The notes below the pieces were generated by a model. The model saw only the letters and a list, made by a program, of their open reading frames with translations. It searched no databases and was not told the DNA's origin. The position numbers were made by a program, and so were the translations under genes. Shown piece by piece: positions 1-10,479 of a stretch of 64,000 nt of DNA (position 1 is its first letter; every line of letters begins with the position of its first letter). The stretch comes from an uncultured Alistipes sp. Its GTDB lineage: Bacteria > Bacteroidota > Bacteroidia > Bacteroidales > Rikenellaceae. The DNA lies in contig CALUNG010000001.1 in NCBI GenBank assembly GCA_944321955.1, positions 179,087-243,086 on the forward strand, given 5' to 3'.

Positions 1-1203
1 TGCCTCGGGGTTGGGAACGTATGCCTTGGCGGCTTCGTAGTCCTCCGGGGTGATGTAGTTCATCAGGTTGTTGATGACCTGCTGGATCTTGTCCGACTCG
101 ATGTTTACCAGACGGGGCGGAATCTTGCCGGTCGTCGGGTCCTGAAGGTCTTTCAGGTAGAGGGGTGATACGTATCCCTCCTGGCTGATGTAGACCATGC
201 AGCCGGTCTTGCCTTCGCTGAAGAGCTTGTAGACGCCCATACCCAGCTCGGAGCAGTATACGAGGTCGTATGCGATAGGAGTCTGGCAACGAACCTCGTA
301 GCCGATCTCTACCGGACGCGACTTGACCTTGATGCCGATCTCCTTGAGCTTCTTCTCGAGCAGCTCGTTGAAGATGTGTGCCTTCGATACCTTGCCGAGT
401 TCGGGGTGTCCATGCTCGTCATAGGTGAAGTGTACGCCCGAGTTCTTGATCTCCTCGTTGCTCAGAGCGTGGAATACGCCCTCCGAGATCATTGCCACAC
501 CGTATTCCACACCCATGATCTTGCGCTTGATGATCGAGGAAACCACGAGGTTGACGATCTTCTCGACCGTGATTTCGGTCTTGTTGAACATCTCGGGAAT
601 AACGATCATCGGGTAGTGGCATGCGGTACCGATACCGAATGCGAGGTGACCTGCCGAGCGGCCCATGGCTGCAACGACGAACCAGTTTGCCGACGTGCGG
701 GCGTCGTTGTATACGGCGCGGCCGATAACCGTACCGCCCTCCTTTGCCGACTGATATCCGAATGTCGGGGTGCCTGCCGGAAGCGGGAGGTCATTGTCGA
801 TGGTCTTGGGCACGTGGATGTTTGCGATGGGGTATTTCTTTGCCTCGAGGAACTTGGCGATGCGGTTTGCCGTCGAAGCGGTGTCGTCGCCGCCGACCGT
901 TACGAGCAGCTTGACGTTGTTCTCCTTGAAGAAGGTGAGGTTGAAGTTCTCCTCGAAATCCTTGTCGGTGGGCTTGAAACGGCTCATCGTGAGATAGGAA
1001 CCTCCCAGATTGAAGATGTAGTCCGCTTTTGCGAAATCGAGATCCTCGTGCTTGGGCGCGGGATTGAACAGACCCGAATAGCCGTAGTGCAGACCGATTA
1101 CGCGATATCCTTTTGCAAGGAATGTCTTGGCGACGCTGGCGACAACCGTATTCATGCCGGGTGCCGGTCCACCGCCGGTGAGAATTGCAATAGCCTCTTT
1201 CAT
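1..1203 (-). CDS. pfp: 6-phosphofructokinase, PPi-dependent type (C-terminus cut by window edge)
   Basis: Read on the minus strand from ATG at 1203; 401 codons stay open to the window edge, so the C-terminus is missing. The N-terminus carries the nucleotide-loop signature LTGGGPAPGMN (residues 8-18). Residues 104-108 are GGDDT where ATP-dependent enzymes have GGDGS (Asp107 replaces the Gly), and residues 132-138 are PKTIDND with Lys133 where ATP enzymes have Gly. In the PFK family these two changes mark use of pyrophosphate instead of ATP, so the reaction is probably fructose-6-phosphate + PPi to fructose-1,6-bisphosphate + Pi, which is reversible and cytoplasmic. Asp136 would be the catalytic base. 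A -7 element lies 43-50 bases upstream of the start. The cofactor assignment is inference from known family rules. Confidence 0.93.
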   Translation of the reverse strand, partial: MKEAIAILTGGGPAPGMNTVVASVAKTFLAKGYRVIGLHYGYSGLFNPAPKHEDLDFAKADYIFNLGGSYLTMSRFKPTDKDFEENFNLTFFKENNVKLLVTVGGDDTASTANRIAKFLEAKKYPIANIHVPKTIDNDLPLPAGTPTFGYQSAKEGGTVIGRAVYNDARTSANWFVVAAMGRSAGHLAFGIGTACHYPMIVIPEMFNKTEITVEKIVNLVVSSIIKRKIMGVEYGVAMISEGVFHALSNEEIKNSGVHFTYDEHGHPELGKVSKAHIFNELLEKKLKEIGIKVKSRPVEIGYEVRCQTPIAYDLVYCSELGMGVYKLFSEGKTGCMVYISQEGYVSPLYLKDLQDPTTGKIPPRLVNIESDKIQQVINNLMNYITPEDYEAAKAYVPNPEA

Positions 1204-1433: not shown

Positions 1434-1441
1434 TATCTTTG
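1434..1441 (+). promoter_or_regulatory. -7 promoter element for the steroid-reductase operon
   Basis: TATCTTTG matches TAnnTTTG. A TTTG at 1414-1417 lies 16 bases upstream, slightly short of the usual 17-23. Transcription would begin near 1447, which excludes an upstream in-frame ATG at 1381 and supports the start at 1474. Confidence 0.55.
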
Positions 1442-1473: not shown

Positions 1474-2235
1474 ATGAGTCTTTTCGACATTTTCCTGATC
1501 GTTATGGCGGTGCTTGCCCTGGTGGTATTCATCGCGCTCTACTTTTTCGAGGCCGGATACGGCTATCTTTTCAATCCCAGGTTCGGCTTTCCGATACCCA
1601 ACAGAATAGGGTGGGTGCTGATGGAGTCTCCGGTATTCATTGCCATGACCATATTGTGGGCCTTGTCGGACCAGACGTGGGCTCCGGCGCCGCTGGCGTT
1701 GTTTCTGATATTCCAGATACACTATTTCCAGCGTTCGTTCATCTTCCCGTTCCTTATTCGCGGCAACTCGAAGATGCCTTTCGGCATTGTGCTCATGGGC
1801 ATGGTGTTCAATACGCTCAATGCCCTGATGCAGGGCGGCTGGATCTTCTACGTGGCTCCGCAGAGCGACTACTATGCCGACTGGTTCTCCAAACCGTATT
1901 TCTATGTCGGGGCAGCGATATTCCTCTTCGGGTTCATCGTGAACCTTCAGTCCGACTACATTATCCGCCATCTGCGCAAGCCGGGCGATACGAAACACTA
2001 CATCCCGCGCGGCGGCATGTTCCGCTACGTCTCTTCGGCCAACTATTTCGGCGAGTTGATGGAGTGGGTGGGCTTCGCCATAGCGTCGTGGTCGTGGGCC
2101 GGCGCCGTGTTCGCATGGTGGACCTTCGCCAACCTCGCACCGCGTGCCAATTCGCTCTACAAACGCTATGAGCAGGAGTTCGGCGAAGAGTTTACATCGC
2201 TCAAACGCAAGAGAATAATTCCATTCATATATTGA
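1474..2235 (+). CDS. Steroid 5-alpha-reductase family protein (3-oxo-5-alpha-steroid 4-dehydrogenase)
   Basis: This is a 253-residue membrane protein, almost the length of human SRD5A1 and SRD5A2, with several hydrophobic segments (residues 5-25, 52-65, 70-82, 104-126, 142-157, 196-215). It keeps the family hallmarks: a Glu in LMESP (residue 51), His83-Tyr84, the NLQSD motif (157-161), RKPGDT (168-173), IPRGGMF (177-183) and ANYFGELMEW (189-198). The stretch after residue 157 is strikingly like SRD5A1 as I remember it. Known members use NADPH to reduce the C4-C5 double bond of 3-oxo-delta4 steroids to the 5-alpha (allo) product. The start at 1474 fits the promoter at 1434. The next gene begins 4 bases after the stop, so an operon is likely. 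The natural substrate (bile acid, steroid hormone or other sterol) is not shown by the sequence. Confidence 0.93.
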   Translation: MSLFDIFLIVMAVLALVVFIALYFFEAGYGYLFNPRFGFPIPNRIGWVLMESPVFIAMTILWALSDQTWAPAPLALFLIFQIHYFQRSFIFPFLIRGNSKMPFGIVLMGMVFNTLNALMQGGWIFYVAPQSDYYADWFSKPYFYVGAAIFLFGFIVNLQSDYIIRHLRKPGDTKHYIPRGGMFRYVSSANYFGELMEWVGFAIASWSWAGAVFAWWTFANLAPRANSLYKRYEQEFGEEFTSLKRKRIIPFIY

Positions 2236-2239
2236 TATT

Positions 2240-3481
2240 ATGGAGAAAGACCTCAAGGAGTCGAAACTCTTTACCCCCTATCGCCTGGGACATGTCACGT
2301 TGTGTAACCGAACCATACGTTCGGCGGCATTCGAATCCATGGGAAAGGATTTCGGTCCCACGCAGCAGCTCAAGGACTACCATGTAAGTGTCGCCCGCGG
2401 CGGAATCGGCATGACCACGCTGGCCTATGCGGCCGTCAACCGCAGCGGTCTGTCGTTCAACAAACAGCTGTGGCTGCGTCCCGAGATTGTTCCCGGACTG
2501 AAGGACATCACAGACGCCATACATGCCGAAGGTGCGGCCGCAGGCATACAGATAGGCCATTGCGGCAACATGACGCACTGGTCTACGGCCGGATGTTTCC
2601 CCGTCGGAGCATCTACGGGCTTCAATCTCTACTCTCCGACCTTCGTGCGCGGCATGCGTCGCAGCGAGTGTGTCGAGTTCGCCAAGGATTTCGGTAAGGC
2701 CGTGCTTACGGCACACGAGGCAGGTTTCGACAGCGTCGAGGTTCATGCCGGTCACGGTTACCTCATATCGCAGTTCCTGTCGCCCTATACCAACCACCGC
2801 CACGATGAATACGGCGGCTCGCTTGCCAACCGCATGCGCTTCATGAACATGTGCCTCGAAGAGGTTATGGAGGCTGCCGCGAAGACCGGTACCGCCGTGC
2901 TGGTCAAGCATAACATGGAGGATGGCTTCAAGCGCGGCATTCAGATCCCCGAGAGCATCGAGATTGCCAAACAGATCGAAAAGTTAGGAGTCGACGGCAT
3001 AGTCCTTACTTCGGGTTTCGTGTCGAAGGCCCCGATGGCCGTGATGCGCGGACGCATACCGACCAAGACCATGAGTTACTATATGCCGTGGTCGTCGTGG
3101 CCGCAGAAGATCGTGGTAAACCTTTTCGGCAACATGATGATCCGCCAGTACGATTTCGAGGAGTGCTACTTCCTCGAGAACGCCAAAAAGTTCCGTGCCG
3201 AACTGAAGTGCCCGCTGGTATATGTCGGCGGCCTCATATCGCGAGCCGGTATCGAACGCGTACTCGATGCCGGTTTCGAGATGGTGCAGATGGCGCGTGC
3301 GCTGGTCAACGACCCGGCCTTCGTGAACAAGCTGCGCGATGGCGACATCAATACCCGTTCGGGCTGCGACCACCGTGACTACTGCATGGCCCGCATGTAT
3401 TCTGTTGACATGCAGTGCTGCCACAACTGCAAGGAGCATATTCCCGACCGCCTCTGGAAGGAACTGAACAAAATCAAGTAG
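2240..3481 (+). CDS. Old-yellow-enzyme family NADH:flavin oxidoreductase, candidate 5-beta-reductase
   Basis: A 413-residue FMN-binding TIM-barrel enzyme. The N-terminus LFTPYRLGHVTLCNR and RSAAFESM are typical of the family. The active-site region reads HAGHGYLISQFLSP followed by EYGGSLANRMRF. The C-terminal tail holds five cysteines (376, 382, 393, 394, 397) in a spacing unlike the usual 2,4-dienoyl-CoA-reductase Fe-S motif, and there is no C-terminal NAD-binding domain as in BaiCD (about 640 residues). It lies 4 bases after the steroid 5-alpha-reductase and 3 bases before a short-chain dehydrogenase. In published bile-acid gene clusters of Bacteroidales an OYE-type protein acts as the 5-beta-reductase of 3-oxo-delta4 bile acids. 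That role here is inferred from context; the flavoenzyme call itself is firm. Confidence 0.88.
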   Translation: MEKDLKESKLFTPYRLGHVTLCNRTIRSAAFESMGKDFGPTQQLKDYHVSVARGGIGMTTLAYAAVNRSGLSFNKQLWLRPEIVPGLKDITDAIHAEGAAAGIQIGHCGNMTHWSTAGCFPVGASTGFNLYSPTFVRGMRRSECVEFAKDFGKAVLTAHEAGFDSVEVHAGHGYLISQFLSPYTNHRHDEYGGSLANRMRFMNMCLEEVMEAAAKTGTAVLVKHNMEDGFKRGIQIPESIEIAKQIEKLGVDGIVLTSGFVSKAPMAVMRGRIPTKTMSYYMPWSSWPQKIVVNLFGNMMIRQYDFEECYFLENAKKFRAELKCPLVYVGGLISRAGIERVLDAGFEMVQMARALVNDPAFVNKLRDGDINTRSGCDHRDYCMARMYSVDMQCCHNCKEHIPDRLWKELNKIK

Positions 3482-3484
3482 CCT

Positions 3485-4291
3485 ATGATACGAGGAGAGG
3501 TCGCTCCGGGAACGAAAACGGCTCTCGTGACCGGCGCTTCGGCTGGAATCGGACGCTGCTATGCACGACGTCTTGCGTCGCTTGGTTATAATCTGGTGAT
3601 CGTAAGCCGTCACGAGGATCGTCTGAACGAACTTGCCGAAGAGATACGCGGACAGCATCCCGTATCGGTTACGGTTCTGGCCATGGACCTTGCCCGCGAG
3701 CAGGCGTCGTATGAACTGTTCGAGGCCGTCAGGTCGCGTGGTATCGATGTCGACGTGCTGATCAACAACGCCGGCATGTTCTCGTTTCTCGACATACTGA
3801 AGACCCCGACGGAGCGCATATCGCGTCTGCTGTTGCTGCATGACATGACCCTTACGCTCAATTGCCGCCTGTTCGGCGAGGAGATGGCACGTCGCGGCGG
3901 CGGGCATATTCTGAACATGTCGTCGTTCTCGATATGGATGCCTTTTCCGGGTCTGTCGTTATACAGCGCCAGCAAATCCTACGTAAAGAGTTTTTCGGTG
4001 GCCTTCTCCAAGGAGGTTCAGGAACTCGGCATAAAGTGTACGGCCGTATGTCCGGCCGGTATCGCCACCGACCTTTACGGCTTGCCGGCTGACTGGCAGC
4101 GTTTCGGTGTGAGAATCGGTGTGCTGATGACGGCGGACCGTTGCGCCAAGAAGGGATTGAGGGCCATGTGGCGCGGACGCCGCAAGTGCGTCCCCGACTG
4201 GTGGAACAAGATCTTCATACCTTTCTGTCTGCTGATACCTTATCCGCTGATGAAACTCATACGGCGCTGGACGGCCCGTTTCCAGAAATAA
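3485..4291 (+). CDS. Short-chain dehydrogenase/reductase, candidate 3-hydroxysteroid dehydrogenase
   Basis: A 268-residue classical SDR. The cofactor loop is TGASAGIG (residues 16-23), followed by Ser41-Arg42 at the end of the second strand, which favours NADPH. NNAG is at 94-97, and the catalytic set is Ser147 or nearby, Tyr160 and Lys164 (YSASK). It starts 3 bases after the flavoenzyme stop and is followed by a strong terminator, so it is the last gene of the three-gene operon. The C-terminal part (about 225-268) has a hydrophobic stretch, as in the 17-beta-HSD12-like SDRs that attach to membranes. Oxidation or reduction of a 3-hydroxyl or 3-keto group on a steroid would complete the pathway implied by its neighbours. 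The substrate and stereochemistry are inferences. Confidence 0.9.
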   Translation: MIRGEVAPGTKTALVTGASAGIGRCYARRLASLGYNLVIVSRHEDRLNELAEEIRGQHPVSVTVLAMDLAREQASYELFEAVRSRGIDVDVLINNAGMFSFLDILKTPTERISRLLLLHDMTLTLNCRLFGEEMARRGGGHILNMSSFSIWMPFPGLSLYSASKSYVKSFSVAFSKEVQELGIKCTAVCPAGIATDLYGLPADWQRFGVRIGVLMTADRCAKKGLRAMWRGRRKCVPDWWNKIFIPFCLLIPYPLMKLIRRWTARFQK

Positions 4292-4300
4292 ACGACAATG

Positions 4301-4332
4301 GCAGGCAACCTCGATGGTTGCCTGCTTTTTTT
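4301..4332 (+). terminator. Rho-independent terminator of the steroid-reductase operon
   Basis: A perfect 10-bp stem (4301-4310 with 4316-4325) with the 5-base loop TCGAT is followed directly by seven T. Confidence 0.92.
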
Positions 4333-4544
4333 GTCGTATCGTCCTGAACAAAAAAGATTCGGCGGCGATACACTTTTTGTCATTATTTGTTAATTTCGCG
4401 CGCCAAAACAGATGTTGTGGGTTATCTCTAAATGTCATAATGTCGTTATTGGTAGGTTGTCAGGTTTTATGGTGCACCACTTGATTTCATCGGATGTGCG
4501 GCTGATGGTCGCCCGGAATCGCGTGTGCATTGAGAGTGAAAAAT

Positions 4545-5735
4545 ATGGAGAACAAAATGACATTGAAAAACTGGTTGCCTCTGATCGGGCTGACCTGCGC
4601 GGCGTTCATATTCAATACCTCGGAGTTCATACCCATAGGTCTGTTGAGCGACATAGCGGCCGATTTTGCCATTACCGAAGCACGTGCCGGAATGATAATA
4701 TCGGTATATGCATTTGTGGTCATGCTGATGTCGCTGCCGCTGATGATACTGGTATCCAAGGTAGAACTGCGCAAATTGATGCTGGTCATAGCATCGCTGT
4801 TCGTGCTGTTTCAGATGCTGTCGGGCATATCGACCGGCTACGGCATGCTCATGTTGTCGAGAATAGGCGTTGCCTGTACACATGCGATATTCTGGTCGAT
4901 AGTATCGCCATATGCCGTAAGGCTTGTTCCGGAGAAGTTCCAGCCGCTGGCTTTAGGAATGATTGCTACCGGCACCTCCATCGCCCTTATCTGCGGCATG
5001 CCGCTGGGACGTATTATCGGACTCTCAATCGGCTGGCGCATGGCGTTCATCTGTATCGGCATCTTCGCGTTCGTGCTGCTCGTCTATATGGCTGCCTTAT
5101 TGCCTAAGGCTCCGAGCCGCGGCGGATTTTCATTCCACAAGTTGCCGGTACTGCTCAAGGATCCGCTGCTCGTGGGACTATATGTCCTGTCGTTCGCCAT
5201 AGCAACATCCTATTATACCGGATACAGCTATATTGAACCGTTCCTTAAACAGGTAGCCGGCATGCACGATGGCATGATCACCACTACGATGGTCATTTTC
5301 GGCTGCATGGGTATTTTGGGCAGCATCTCATTCTCGCGTCTTTACGCCAGAAATCCGTTCAGGTACATGAGTATAGTGTTGGGTGGCGTTACCGTCTGCC
5401 TTTTACTGTTGCGGCCGGCTTCGTATTTCATGGTGGCCGCAATTGCGGTCTGTGCATTGTGGGGCGCTTTCTTTACCGCCTCGAACGTGGTAATGCAGTC
5501 GGAGATAATACACATGTCGCCGCAAGATGCCACTTCGGTGTCGATGTCGATTTTCTCTGGTATATTCAATCTGGGCATTGCGTGCGGTACCTATGTCGGC
5601 GGGTCGGTATGTACCCACATGTCGATAGCCGATATCGGTTATGTGGGCGGCGCCATGGCCCTTGTGACATTCATATACTGGCGCCGGTATGTCATGGCCC
5701 GGTTCCGCAAGGCTCTGCAGCTGCTGCACAGGTAG
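4545..5735 (+). CDS. sotB: MFS efflux transporter, SotB (sugar efflux) family
   Basis: A 396-residue, 12-helix major-facilitator protein. The beginning AAFIFNTSEFIPIGLLSDIA closely follows E. coli SotB, as do VELRKL in the 2-3 loop, SRIGVACTHAIFWSIVSP, and ATGTSIALICGMPLGRIIG in the fifth helix. SotB exports arabinose, IPTG and related compounds in E. coli; the substrate here is unknown. ATG 4545 is chosen over an upstream TTG at 4530; ATG 4557 is also possible. The gene lies beyond the terminator of the steroid operon, so it is probably transcribed separately. A role in exporting products of that operon is conceivable but unsupported. Confidence 0.88.
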   Translation: MENKMTLKNWLPLIGLTCAAFIFNTSEFIPIGLLSDIAADFAITEARAGMIISVYAFVVMLMSLPLMILVSKVELRKLMLVIASLFVLFQMLSGISTGYGMLMLSRIGVACTHAIFWSIVSPYAVRLVPEKFQPLALGMIATGTSIALICGMPLGRIIGLSIGWRMAFICIGIFAFVLLVYMAALLPKAPSRGGFSFHKLPVLLKDPLLVGLYVLSFAIATSYYTGYSYIEPFLKQVAGMHDGMITTTMVIFGCMGILGSISFSRLYARNPFRYMSIVLGGVTVCLLLLRPASYFMVAAIAVCALWGAFFTASNVVMQSEIIHMSPQDATSVSMSIFSGIFNLGIACGTYVGGSVCTHMSIADIGYVGGAMALVTFIYWRRYVMARFRKALQLLHR

Positions 5736-6223: not shown

Positions 6224-7669
6224 ATGGATAAAAAAGAAGCTGACATAATCGGAGAGATTGAGAGTCAGGAGTATAAATACGGTTTTACTTCCGATATCGA
6301 GACCGAGACCATCCCGCGCGGATTGAGCGAGGATGTCGTACGCCTCATATCCAGGAAGAAAGGCGAGCCGGACTGGCTGCTTGAGATGCGCCTGAAGGCT
6401 TACCGTCACTGGCTTACGATGGAGATGCCTACATGGGCGCATCTCGATATTCCGGAGATAGATTTTCAGAACATAATATATTATGCCTCACCCAGAAAGC
6501 GTCCTCAGGTGGACTCGCTCGACGACATAGACCCCGAGTTGAAGCGCACCTTCGACAAGCTGGGCATTCCGCTCGAGGAGCAGATGGCGCTGTCGGGAGT
6601 GGCGGTCGATGCCGTCATGGACTCCGTGTCGATCAAGACCACGTTCAAGGATGTGCTGGCAGAGAAGGGTATCATATTCTGCTCGATGTCCGAGGCGGTG
6701 CGCGACTATCCGGATCTGGTCCGCAAGTATCTGGGTTCGGTCGTGTCGTATGCCGACAATTTCTATGCGGCGCTCAATACGGCCGTATTTTCGGACGGAT
6801 CGTTCTGCTACATACCCAAGGGGGTGCGTTGCCCGATGGAGCTGTCCACCTATTTCCGCATCAATGCTGCCGGTACGGGACAGTTCGAACGTACGCTGAT
6901 CGTTGCCGACGAAGGGGCATACGTAAGTTATCTCGAGGGCTGCACCGCACCGCGTCGTGACGAGAATCAGCTGCATGCTGCCGTCGTGGAGATCGTCGTG
7001 TTGCGCGATGCCGAGGTGAAGTACTCTACGGTGCAGAACTGGTATCCGGGAGACAAGGACGGCAAGGGCGGAATCTACAACTTTGTTACCAAGCGCGGCG
7101 TCTGCCATGAGAATGCACGCCTTTCGTGGACTCAGGTGGAGACCGGTTCGGCCATAACGTGGAAATACCCGAGCTGCGTGCTGTTGGGCGACAATTCGGT
7201 CGGGGAGTTTTATTCGGTGGCCATGACCAACAACTTCCAGCAGGCCGATACGGGTACCAAGATGATACACATCGGCAGCAATACCCGCAGCCGGATCGTG
7301 TCGAAGGGCATATCGGCCGGGCGCAGCCAGAACTCGTACCGCGGCATGGTCAAGGTGGCCAGGGGAGCGGCAAACGTGCGCAACTATTCGCAGTGCGATT
7401 CGCTGCTCATAGGTGACAGGTGCGGGGCGCATACGTTTCCGGTTATCGACAGCCGCAACGCATCGGCCGTAGTAGAACACGAAGCCACTACGTCGAAGAT
7501 ATCCGAGGAGCAGCTCTTCTACTGCAACCAGCGCGGTCTGTCGACCGAGGATGCCGTGGGGCTTATCGTCAACGGCTATGCGCGCGAGGTGCTGAACAAG
7601 TTGCCCATGGAGTTTGCCGTCGAGGCCCAGAAGCTGTTGGCGCTGAATCTTGAAGGAACGGTAGGATAA
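6224..7669 (+). CDS. sufB: Fe-S cluster assembly scaffold protein SufB
   Basis: A 481-residue protein with the SufB/SufD beta-helix core. Recognisable landmarks are [20 protein letters not shown] near residue 200, YLEGCTAP, the internal [21 protein letters not shown] segment, [15 protein letters not shown], and [15 protein letters not shown] at the C-terminal side. SufB assembles Fe-S clusters with SufC and SufD in the cytoplasm, taking sulfur from SufS. It is the first gene of a tight cluster (17 bases to sufC), with a -7 promoter element 17 bases upstream. The length is normal for the family. Confidence 0.97.
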
Positions 7670-7686
7670 AAAAGAAAAACAGATAT

Positions 7687-8439
7687 ATGCTTAGCGTAAA
7701 GAATTTGCACGCACGAGTTGCGGACAAGGAAATTTTGAAAGGAATAGACCTCGAGGTCAAGGCCGGGGAGGTGCACGCCATAATGGGCCCGAACGGTTCG
7801 GGCAAGAGTACGTTGGCCTCGGTTCTGGCCGGCAACGAGAAATATACGGTCACCGAAGGCGAAGTGCTGTTCGAGGGACGCAATCTGCTGGAGTTGCCGG
7901 TGGAGGAGCGGGCACGCATGGGACTCTTCCTCGGATTCCAGTATCCGGTGGAGATACCTGGAGTTACGATGGCCAACTTCATGAAGATGGCCGTTGGCGA
8001 GATCCGCAAGTACCGCGGTGAGGAGCCTCTGACGGCTGCCGAATTTCTGCGCATGATGCGCGAGAAGTGCGCCATCGTCGAACTCGATACCAGGATGACG
8101 TCGAGAGCCGTGAATGAAGGTTTCTCGGGCGGTGAGAAGAAGAAGAACGAGATATTCCAGATGGCCATGCTCGAGCCGAAGCTCGCCATTCTCGACGAGA
8201 CCGACAGCGGTCTGGATATCGATGCGTTGCGCATCGTGGCGACGGGTGTGACCAAACTGCGCACTCCGGAGAATGCTACGGTGGTCATCACGCACTACCA
8301 GCGTCTGCTCGACTACATAGTCCCGGATTACGTGCATGTGCTCTACAAGGGCCGCATTATCTATTCGGGCGACAAGACGTTGGCCCTGAAGCTGGAAAAG
8401 GAGGGTTACGACTGGCTCATAAACGATTATAAGGAGTAG
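7687..8439 (+). CDS. sufC: Fe-S cluster assembly ATPase SufC
   Basis: A 250-residue ABC-type ATPase without membrane domain. The Walker A motif is GPNGSGKST near residues 34-42, the signature region FSGGEKKKNEI, and the Walker B region LAILDETDSGLD, all diagnostic of SufC. It drives conformational change of the SufBCD complex. The gene lies 17 bases after sufB and 4 bases before sufD. Confidence 0.97.
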   Translation: MLSVKNLHARVADKEILKGIDLEVKAGEVHAIMGPNGSGKSTLASVLAGNEKYTVTEGEVLFEGRNLLELPVEERARMGLFLGFQYPVEIPGVTMANFMKMAVGEIRKYRGEEPLTAAEFLRMMREKCAIVELDTRMTSRAVNEGFSGGEKKKNEIFQMAMLEPKLAILDETDSGLDIDALRIVATGVTKLRTPENATVVITHYQRLLDYIVPDYVHVLYKGRIIYSGDKTLALKLEKEGYDWLINDYKE

Positions 8440-8443
8440 CGCG

Positions 8444-9262
8444 ATGGAACTTCTGGAGTTGATACGAAACGGAGAGTTCAGGCACTTCGGCGGCGGTCGC
8501 ATCGAGAGCGCGTGCGGGCCGTTGGCGGCCGTCGATCCGTCGAAACTGAAGATGACGGTGGCCTCGGGGGTGAGCGCGTCGATCGTGATACTGCATACCC
8601 GTGCGGATGAGACCGTCGTGGATATCGAACTCGAACCGGGAGCATCGCTTGTCGTGGATGATCTCTATCTGGCCGAGACCTTTGCCGAGGTGCGGATACG
8701 TCAGGCTGCCGACAGCAGATGTCGCCTGACGACGGTCGAGCTGCAGAGCGCCAATGCCGATTACGACATCGATCTCGACGGAGCCGGTGCATCGTTCGAG
8801 GCCGGAGGCGTATTTGTTGGGTCGGATTCGGACCATTGTGTTGTCGATCTGACCACACGTCACAACGTTCCCGACTGTACGAGTTCATCGATGGTCAAGG
8901 GCGTTGTGTCGGGCAAGGCCACGGGCGAGTTCCGCGGACATGTCTACGTCGCACCCGACGCGCAGCGTACCGATGCACGACAGCAGAGCCGCAACATCGA
9001 GTTGGGCGACAATGCTCATGTCATAACCAAACCCCAGCTCGAGATATATGCCGATGACGTCAAGTGCAGCCATGGCGCTACGGTCGGACAGATCGATGAC
9101 GATGCCGTGTTGTACATGCGCCAGCGCGGATTGAGCGAAGCCGAGGCCCGCCGGTTGCAGATCGAGGGCTTCGTGAGCGACGTGGTGATGCGCTGCTCGG
9201 TCGACGAGTCTTTCCGCGAAGCATTGAACGGGTGCGTGAAAACGAAACTTGAGAGATTGTGA
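8444..9262 (+). CDS. sufD: Fe-S cluster assembly protein SufD
   Basis: A 272-residue protein, shorter than E. coli SufD (about 420), with the SufB/D core in its second half: GVVSGKATGEFRGHVYVAPD, QQSRNIELGDNAHVITKPQLEIYADDVKCSHGATVG and LYMRQRGLSEAEAR. The His in KCSHGAT matches the conserved SufD histidine. It forms the scaffold with SufB and SufC. The start is 4 bases after sufC; its stop overlaps the sufS start as TGATG. The short N-terminus is usual in Bacteroidetes, as far as I recall. Confidence 0.94.
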   Translation: MELLELIRNGEFRHFGGGRIESACGPLAAVDPSKLKMTVASGVSASIVILHTRADETVVDIELEPGASLVVDDLYLAETFAEVRIRQAADSRCRLTTVELQSANADYDIDLDGAGASFEAGGVFVGSDSDHCVVDLTTRHNVPDCTSSSMVKGVVSGKATGEFRGHVYVAPDAQRTDARQQSRNIELGDNAHVITKPQLEIYADDVKCSHGATVGQIDDDAVLYMRQRGLSEAEARRLQIEGFVSDVVMRCSVDESFREALNGCVKTKLERL

Positions 9263-10479
9263 TGTTCGATATTGACAAGATACGCAGTGATTTCCCGATA
9301 CTCGGGCGCGAGGTTTACGGACACCCGCTGGTCTATCTCGACAGTGGGGCGACGGCTCAGAAACCGCGTTGCGTGACCGATACCGTACGGTATCTCCACG
9401 ACGAGATGAATGCAAACGTGCATCGCGGCGTGCATTATCTTTCGGAGACGGCGACCGAGCTGTACGAGGCGGCGCGCGAAAGCGTCCGCAAGTTCATCGA
9501 TGCCGAGAGCAGCGACCAGATAATCTTCACTGCAGGCGCTACGGCGTCGATCAATGCCGTGGCATACGCCTGGGGCGGAACGTTCATCGGTGCCGGTGAC
9601 AATGTGGTCATCAGCGAGATGGAGCACCACTCCAACCTCGTGCCGTGGCAGCAGGTGGCCTTCCGCAAGGGAGCCTCAGTGCGAGTGCTGCCGTTCGATG
9701 ACGATGGCCGGCTGATGACCGAACGTCTCGGCGAGCTGCTCGACGACCGCACGAAGGTGGTGGCCGTGACGCAGGCTTCCAATACGTTGGGTACGCGTCC
9801 CGATCTCAAGCCGCTGATCGAAGCGGCACATGCCGTTGGGGCGGTGGTCATGGTCGACGGCTGTCAGGGTGTCGTCCATGGCGGTGTGAGCGTCCGCGAC
9901 CTGGATTGCGACTTCTACGCCTTCTCAGGTCACAAGCTGTATGCTCCTACGGGCATAGGCGTACTCTACGGCAAGCGCGATCTGCTCGAGGCGATGCCTC
10001 CGTTCCTGTTCGGCGGCGACATGGTCGACCGCGTATCGTTCGAACGGACTACATTTGCGCCGCTGCCGCTGAAATTCGAGGCCGGTACGGCCAATTTTAT
10101 CGGGGCCATCGCTCTGGGGGAGGCAATAAAATATGTGACATCCTTCCCTGAAGGTGCGATTGCCGCACACGAGGAGCGACTGTTGCGGTATGCTACGGAA
10201 CGCCTCGAGACGATCGACGGCCTGAGAATATACGGCAATATGCCCGGCAAGTCGCCGATAATATCGTTCAATATCGAGGGTGCGCACCACTATGACGTGG
10301 GCATGATCCTCGACAAGCTGGGTATTGCCATCCGTACGGGACAGCATTGTGCCGAGCCCGTCATGACGCATTACGGCGTTACGGGCATGTGCCGGGCATC
10401 GTTTGCGATGTACAATACCGAGGCCGAGATCGACGCTCTGGTTGCAGGCGTCGAACGTGCCGCCCGAATGTTGAGATAA
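9262..10479 (+). CDS. sufS: Cysteine desulfurase SufS
   Basis: A 405-residue PLP enzyme. The PLP-binding lysine lies in SGHKLYAPTGIGVLYG (near residue 225), the catalytic Cys in RTGQHCAEPVM (near residue 360), and ASNTLGT and MVDGCQG are also present. It removes sulfur from cysteine for the SufBCD scaffold. ATG 9262 overlaps the sufD stop; a GTG at 9259 is an alternative. No sufE or sufU gene, the usual sulfur acceptor, is found in this cluster. Confidence 0.96.
   Translation: MFDIDKIRSDFPILGREVYGHPLVYLDSGATAQKPRCVTDTVRYLHDEMNANVHRGVHYLSETATELYEAARESVRKFIDAESSDQIIFTAGATASINAVAYAWGGTFIGAGDNVVISEMEHHSNLVPWQQVAFRKGASVRVLPFDDDGRLMTERLGELLDDRTKVVAVTQASNTLGTRPDLKPLIEAAHAVGAVVMVDGCQGVVHGGVSVRDLDCDFYAFSGHKLYAPTGIGVLYGKRDLLEAMPPFLFGGDMVDRVSFERTTFAPLPLKFEAGTANFIGAIALGEAIKYVTSFPEGAIAAHEERLLRYATERLETIDGLRIYGNMPGKSPIISFNIEGAHHYDVGMILDKLGIAIRTGQHCAEPVMTHYGVTGMCRASFAMYNTEAEIDALVAGVERAARMLR

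Follow-up and report, generated by a model that had tools for sequence, protein, structure and literature searches.

We analysed a 64,000-nucleotide stretch of DNA from an uncultured Alistipes sp., referred to below as the window (bases 179087-243086 of contig 1; the genome is 2.06 Mb in 30 contigs and 92% complete). Near its start lie three genes encoding a steroid 5-alpha-reductase (5AR), an old-yellow-enzyme-family reductase (OYE) and a short-chain dehydrogenase/reductase (SDR). The system itself, known from Bacteroidota that make isoallo bile acids, has been described before, and the three-gene set is a further member of it. Gene identities, catalytic residues, fold predictions for 5AR and OYE, cluster conservation and co-occurrence were computed here. 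The features are as follows.

1474..2235, + strand: 5AR, SRD5A-type membrane steroid 5-alpha-reductase (253 aa, SRD5A fold, PF02544)
2240..3481, + strand: OYE, old-yellow-enzyme-family FMN ene-reductase, probable 3-oxo-5-beta-steroid/delta4 oxidoreductase (5-beta-reductase, 5BR) (413 aa, PF00724)
3485..4291, + strand: SDR with hydrophobic C-terminal tail, probable 3-beta-hydroxysteroid dehydrogenase (HSDH) (268 aa, PF00106; presumed substrate)
4300..4326, + strand: intrinsic terminator (11-pair stem, then T6)
1434..1441, + strand: Bacteroidota -7-like element TATCTTTG (read from the sequence; weak)

All three genes are on the same strand, separated by 4 bases (5AR-OYE) and 3 bases (OYE-SDR); these coordinates confirm the three adjoining open reading frames (ORFs) reported in an earlier interpretation made from the letters alone, the sequence-only reading. 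The 5AR gene starts at ATG 1474, which fits because homologues of at least 50% identity align from residue 1-5, and stops at 2235; the same alignment ruled out GTG 1381, the start of the mechanically called ORF. The nearest named record among the best 80 of 583 loci is "Candidatus Alistipes excrementipullorum", with protein identities of 96% (5AR), 99% (OYE) and 90% (SDR).

The 5-alpha-reductase and its cofactor pocket

Both family and predicted fold place the first protein among the steroid 5-alpha-reductases. It scores 148 bits against Pfam Steroid_dh (PF02544; cut-off 22.6), above the SRD5A family threshold, and matches PbSRD5A (7c83; 179.5 bits, E 7e-52) and human SRD5A2 (7bw1; 144.6 bits, E 3.1e-41); the very-long-chain enoyl-CoA reductase TECR (22of_A; 40.6 bits, E 1.6e-9) is farther than both. 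AlphaFold, run on 16 sequences, gave a model with a mean predicted local distance difference test score (pLDDT) of 89.2, and a Foldseek search with it gave query-normalised TM-scores of 0.90 to 7c83 and 0.84 to 7bw1, the next match reaching 0.48. In the alignment Glu51, His83-Tyr84, NLQSD and ANYFGELMEW correspond to E57, H90-Y91, NIHSD and ANFLGEIIEW of SRD5A2. From these motifs the sequence-only reading had proposed an SRD5A-type enzyme, suggesting structure prediction and alignment with SRD5A2 as the check and a mismatch at Glu57/Tyr91 as the outcome that would tell against it. The call is upheld by the Pfam score, the solved-structure matches and the aligned motifs, and Glu57 and Tyr91 do align with E51 and Y84. 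In the published SRD5A mechanisms these two residues polarise the C3 carbonyl (PMC7591894, PMC7815742).

Homologous loci were pooled from a search of 295 genomes of the order, from the best 80 of 583 named loci (a set rich in Alistipes) and from 40 further regions. The order search found 88 genomes with any 5AR match, of which 70 were substantial (40 near, 30 far) and 18 weak or fragmentary; among the far genomes, G186 and G035, the latter truncated at a contig end, were left out of the locus comparison. The near clade is defined by a 5AR identity of at least 49.5% and includes the window. After two extra copies of the window's own locus and four duplicates were dropped, the set held 118 near-clade and 28 distant 5ARs. 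On a FastTree tree the near-clade 5ARs are monophyletic (local support 0.914). The catalytic pair E51/Y84 is present in all 118 near-clade and all 28 distant sequences, and in 6 of 6 other Bacteroidota sequences.

Beside Glu51 the protein departs from the characterised enzymes: Met50 occupies the place of the Gln of QEY in SRD5A2 and PbSRD5A, and this Gln is Met in 152 of 152 Bacteroidota homologues (118 near, 28 distant, 6 other), which rules out the change as a gut-specific switch. The strict QEY signature (Han et al. 2021, Gln56) is absent from every full-length Bacteroidota homologue examined, and SRD5A membership is therefore claimed only from the family score, the fold and the Glu/Tyr pair. 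In human SRD5A2 the A and L variants of Gln56 lost activity and the R variant largely lost it (PMC7815742).

We then compared thirteen NADPH hydrogen-bond positions, the direct partners listed by Han et al. for PbSRD5A (paper pair PMC7591894/PMC7815742). Ten are conserved in 113 or more of the 118 near-clade sequences. The other three are R34 (kept in 0/118, with Lys in 7), Y177 (2/118) and H230 (0/118), and in the distant clade the same positions are kept in 24/28 (28 counting Lys), 28/28 and 22/28, respectively; that clade differs instead at Y193, kept in 9/28. An order-wide sample of 42 near-clade sequences, less dominated by Alistipes than the pooled set, had Arg34 in none (Lys in 5), Tyr177 in two and His230 in none. 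The window 5AR has Y31, H175 and L228 for PbSRD5A R34, Y177 and H230, and across the near clade hydrophobic or aromatic side chains mostly take the places of Arg34 and His230, and His that of Tyr177. The motif match of the sequence-only reading thus stands for the Glu and His-Tyr motifs and is incomplete elsewhere, Gln56 being Met and three NADPH contacts being replaced. The idea that adjacency to an OYE gene brought about the altered pocket is not supported as such, since the 13 near-clade 5ARs with no OYE in the flanking DNA available also lack the His; the only two near-clade sequences that keep Tyr177 (L121, L123) belong to those 13 loci.

R34 and Y177 lie on intracellular loops and H230 on transmembrane helix 7 (TM7). 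In the SRD5A2 paper the adenine-ribose-phosphate end of the cofactor is held mostly by three cytosolic loops, and loop 1 and TM6-7 also hold the NADPH diphosphate. Going by this text, R34, Y177 and H230 may all sit at the adenosine end, with a putative contact to the 2'-phosphate; because loop 1 and TM6-7 also hold the diphosphate, R34 and H230 may sit at either end of the cofactor. The near-clade pocket appears remodelled, which may mean use of NADH: if the three positions hold the adenosine-phosphate end, the 5AR would use NADH, and the hydride taken by OYE from the 5-beta substrate would be returned by 5AR to the alpha face in a redox-neutral cycle. A joint reading, in which the gut-cluster 5ARs switched to NADH for a redox-neutral ring flip and OYE passes its electrons perhaps to a separate carrier, is tentative and on balance unlikely; it is weakened by the fact that two of the three positions, by what the text says of loop 1 and TM7, are not pinned to the adenosine end.

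The residue pattern of this pocket is what may surprise experts in the field: the changes at three cofactor contacts coincide with exactly the 5AR clade that owns the cluster. Together with the Met found at a position of human loss of function (Gln56) throughout 152 Bacteroidota homologues, they open an otherwise loose annotation to experiment. A literature search on cofactor use or QEY in gut 5ARs found the residue pattern in no title or abstract opening among the matches listed, subscription journals being mostly outside its coverage.

The second and third genes

The only Pfam match of OYE is Oxidored_FMN (PF00724, 170.6 bits), and the Pfam search found no FAD/NADH domain in the 413-aa protein. 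Its AlphaFold model has a pLDDT of 88.6, falling below 50 at 383-389 and least confident at the Cys site; Foldseek matched it to 2-naphthoyl-CoA reductase, 2,4-dienoyl-CoA reductase and YqjM, a barrel that YqjM shares with Fe-S enzymes such as the first two. Against the BaiCD profile it scores 172.5 bits (cut-off 825), the best stretch covering profile positions 3-256 of 642, and the score is low partly because OYE is single-domain. In an alignment of 39 sequences, the window's included, out of 99 other orthologues, H169, H172 and Y174 are invariant (39/39), as are C376, C382 and C393 (39/39), and H378 is present in 37/39.

This C-terminal Cys pattern resembles the FadH-type Fe-S motif of four cysteines. 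That motif is not found intact in OYE, which has three invariant Cys and the near-invariant His378, as if one Cys had become His; a metal site is possible. With such a degenerate, Fe-S-like Cys3-His set and no FAD domain, OYE may pass electrons to a separate carrier. Residues 284-300 form a predicted extra helix, hydrophobic (...WPQKIVVNLFGNMMIRQ...) and outside the YqjM alignment, and in the model this could be a membrane or 5AR docking element.

About 1.9 kb past the operon, whose OYE has the possible Fe-S site, a run of ORFs begins (window 6224-10479) whose sequences resemble sufB, sufC, sufD and sufS, with no search made.

The third protein is a classical SDR (adh_short, PF00106, 139.3 bits) with a hydrophobic C-terminal tail, and S147, Y160 and K164 are present in 36 of 36 aligned sequences drawn from 71 other orthologues. 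No hydroxysteroid-dehydrogenase-specific match appeared among the best 25 of 215 families, the best 60 of 605 chains or a second list of 30 chains, so the label 3-beta-HSDH rests on cluster position and literature. By analogy with the described clusters the protein is probably a 3-beta-hydroxysteroid dehydrogenase: the SDR family proposed for it by the sequence-only reading is borne out by PF00106 and the S-Y-K residues, and its 3-beta-HSDH identity is not shown by the sequence. The sequence-only reading had named grouping with enone or fatty-acid reductases unrelated to steroid clusters as an outcome against it; the tree made on this point covers 5AR, and the nearest solved structures are enone reductases for OYE and ketoacyl reductases for SDR.

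Conservation of the gene set and its surroundings

Loci with less than 1.4 kb of downstream sequence (four near, two far) were set aside. An OYE gene lies within 1 kb downstream of 5AR in 100 of the remaining 114 near loci and in 0 of 26 far loci. Of the OYE-bearing near loci, 77 have 2.3 kb or more downstream; 74 of these 77 carry an SDR gene (at least 30% identity, within 0.9-4.5 kb), and in 68 of 77 it is at the tight position. The whole trio is present in the Alistipes An66 record (L041). No P. merdae title occurs among the best 80 of 583 named loci.

Genome-wide, an OYE orthologue (E 1e-60) is found in 39/40 near genomes, 14/30 far genomes and 2/225 genomes with no substantial 5AR match, so that 53 of the 55 OYE-bearing genomes among the 295 also have a substantial 5AR match (Fisher p 8e-41, relatedness ignored). 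The OYE match is interrupted by a stop in G159 and G227, two of these 55 genomes, and is split into two parts in G133. Because this co-occurrence holds genome-wide, 5AR and OYE are linked even where the genes lie apart. At L126, L132 and L133 (genomes G068, G233 and G159) a distant-clade 5AR has an OYE relative of 39-43% identity about 9 kb off on the same contig, an arrangement that suggests a looser form of the same pathway in other Bacteroidales.

The window genome has a single OYE match, the operon's own. A similarity search of it with the SDR as query, less than a complete survey of HSDHs, gave only three weaker SDR relatives and identified no dedicated 3-alpha-HSDH. One gene of the choloylglycine-hydrolase family is present (221.6 bits; L181:1393-2514), which makes bile-acid deconjugation plausible; the N-terminus of its protein resembles a signal sequence, with a Cys behind AAA as candidate N-terminal residue.

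The strong terminator that the sequence-only reading placed after the third gene is confirmed: the 11-pair stem and six T at 4300-4326 rank first of 8 terminators found (shuffles, mean 3.5). The single promoter element that it proposed is weaker than claimed. The -7-like element TAtcTTTG is present at 1434-1441 with an upstream TTTG at 1414-1417, spaced at 16 bases, which is short for the Bacteroidota consensus; a search for TTTG-N18-22-TAnnTTTG did not return this pair, and a sigma-70-type scan found no site upstream of 5AR. A consensus promoter is thus weak as a candidate, being absent from both searches, and the sequence upstream of 5AR is only suggestive.

A phosphofructokinase-like gene, named from its motif (MKEAIAILTGGGPAPGMNTVV...), lies divergent from the operon on the minus strand (window 1-1203); it has matches in 14 of 149 other loci, which points to partial conservation of the surroundings among relatives. 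On the other side, 3' of the terminator, lies a presumed MFS-type (major facilitator superfamily) transporter gene (window 4530-5735), named with no family search. It was rejected as a part of the system, having a match in 0/149 other loci at E 1e-10, many of them with short flanks, and its position here therefore looks private.

Proposed pathway and known systems

We infer that the operon serves A/B-ring inversion of 3-oxo bile acids, possibly also of other 3-oxo steroids, and consider this reading probable. The reactions and their order are taken, by analogy, from review articles covering studies of Parabacteroides merdae, Odoribacter and Bacteroides. In these the clusters comprise a 5AR, a flavin oxidoreductase and a predicted 3-beta-HSDH (PMC9645264, PMC10672800, PMC12789469, PMC10382948); the flavin enzyme oxidises 3-oxo-5-beta to 3-oxo-delta4 compounds, which 5AR reduces again to 5-alpha (PMC9645264, PMC10672800, PMC10382948). 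Disruption of 5AR in P. merdae prevents formation of allolithocholate derivatives, and 5BR is described as making 3-oxo-delta4-lithocholate from 3-oxolithocholate (PMC9645264, PMC10672800). Alistipes sp. is named as a 5-alpha-reductase carrier (PMC12789469), and a chicken-caecum study of 2018 reported a 5AR gene in all its Bacteroidetes isolates but two Odoribacter and one P. distasonis; these isolates include Alistipes An66, the strain name of the L041 record (PMC6069880).

If the same pathway runs in this organism, OYE would act as 5BR and take hydrogen from 3-oxo-5-beta-cholanoate to give the 3-oxo-delta4 compound. The membrane 5AR, with Glu51 and Tyr84 polarising the C3 carbonyl, would then deliver hydride to the alpha face of C5, and the SDR would reduce the 3-oxo to a 3-beta-hydroxyl group. 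The product would be an isoallo bile acid with a flat ring, for example isoallolithocholate from 3-oxolithocholate. The direction of OYE and the stereochemistry of SDR in this scheme are presumed.

Several points weigh against this reading. Conversion by this organism is predicted from its genes, and its putative kinship to the tested P. merdae genes is drawn from review descriptions. Reduction of the delta4 bond to 5-alpha or 5-beta is called irreversible (PMC12789469), which speaks against a 5BR running backwards, and the 5BR role of the flavin enzyme is only hypothesised in one review (PMC10382948). The 5AR has Met for Q56 although Q56A/L kills human SRD5A2 (PMC7815742). None of the SDR matches listed is specific to HSDHs; because the SDR search found only three weaker relatives, other bacteria may have to supply the 3-oxo substrate. 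Lastly, 14 of the 114 near loci have no OYE within 1 kb, among them L096 with the gene 1.9 kb away and some whose genome has it on another contig (e.g. G109, G192, G257), and one of the 40 near-clade genomes, G001, shows no OYE at all.

The sequence-only reading had a single cell making either the 5-alpha or the 5-beta product from a 3-oxo-delta4 intermediate, perhaps on hormones, with OYE running forward as a 5-beta-reductase. OYE-type 5-beta-reductases do reduce progesterone in Clostridium innocuum and relatives (PMC11722256), the active-site Tyr and His pair is conserved in OYE, and the irreversibility that one review assigns to delta4 reduction (PMC12789469) favours this direction. The reviews of the Bacteroidota clusters, on the other side, give 5BR the oxidising direction (PMC9645264, PMC10672800); OYE scores far below the BaiCD cut-off (172.5 against 825 bits), partly from its single-domain build; and a tight operon with opposite products would be wasteful, which is an argument and not data. 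We regard the forward direction as quite improbable. Since the reviews have the flavin enzyme oxidise the 5-beta substrate, inversion of the A/B ring junction is the most likely function of the operon, in place of making "either" product. Sequence and fold uphold the earlier link to Bacteroidota isoallo clusters for 5AR, and synteny and literature uphold it for the set, with the product claim changed; the interpretation was right in kind and probably wrong in direction.

A lower likelihood still attaches to a role of the operon in detoxifying or scavenging 3-oxo steroids of dietary or plant origin instead of bile acids. SRD5A relatives have evolved for varied steroid and lipid substrates (PMC7591894), and distant Bacteroidales 5ARs occur with no adjacent OYE; set against this, the reviewed Bacteroidota members act on bile acids (PMC10382948) and the genome carries a choloylglycine-hydrolase-family gene. 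Lipid housekeeping, with 5AR and SDR acting on very-long-chain enoyl-/ketoacyl-CoA or polyprenols and OYE as a dienoyl reductase, could draw on the distant relation of TECR to 5AR (22of_A, E 1.6e-9), the generic ketoacyl-reductase-like SDR and the dienoyl-CoA reductase among the fold neighbours of OYE, but it is scarcely credible. The 5AR matches the steroid reductases better (179.5 and 144.6 bits) than TECR (40.6 bits), it retains the Glu and Tyr for the steroid carbonyl, and 225 of 295 genomes of the order have no substantial 5AR match, which shows that 5AR is not universal housekeeping; the fatty-acid elongation form of this reading (TECR with ketoacyl reductase) was rejected on bit scores and catalytic residues.

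Under the preferred reading, ring inversion of bile acids, the products would be isoallo bile acids, for which inhibition of Gram-positive pathogens including C. difficile (PMC10382948) and promotion of regulatory T cells (PMC12697870) have been reported. Alistipes-like genomes with a 5AR conserve the 5AR-OYE-SDR set, and their record titles name several animal hosts; the list of candidate producers therefore widens.

The closest known system is the isoallo-bile-acid cluster of P. merdae and Odoribacteraceae, whose primary papers are reportedly those of Sato et al. and Li et al., known here through reviews. By the reviews' account it has the same three gene families clustered, in the same phylum. 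A 5AR gene stands beside an NADH:flavin oxidoreductase gene in that cluster as it does here (4-base gap); as candidate counterpart of its 3-beta-HSDH gene the window has an SDR with S147-Y160-K164 and no HSDH-specific match among those listed. BaiCD and the C. innocuum ci2350 5-beta-reductase share with OYE the FMN barrel ene-reductase domain with its catalytic Tyr. OYE differs from them in having no detected FAD/NADH domain, in scoring far under the BaiCD cut-off, and in its C-x5-C-x10-C pattern with a near-invariant His, as opposed to the four Cys of the FadH type. The BaiP/BaiJ 5-alpha-reductases likewise make allo bile acids but are confined to Firmicutes and distinct from the membrane-associated Bacteroidetes 5ARs (PMC9645264). 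With PbSRD5A (7c83) and human SRD5A2 (7bw1) the cluster's 5AR shares the SRD5A fold and the Glu57/Tyr91 equivalents, and it keeps ten of the thirteen NADPH hydrogen-bond contacts of PbSRD5A.

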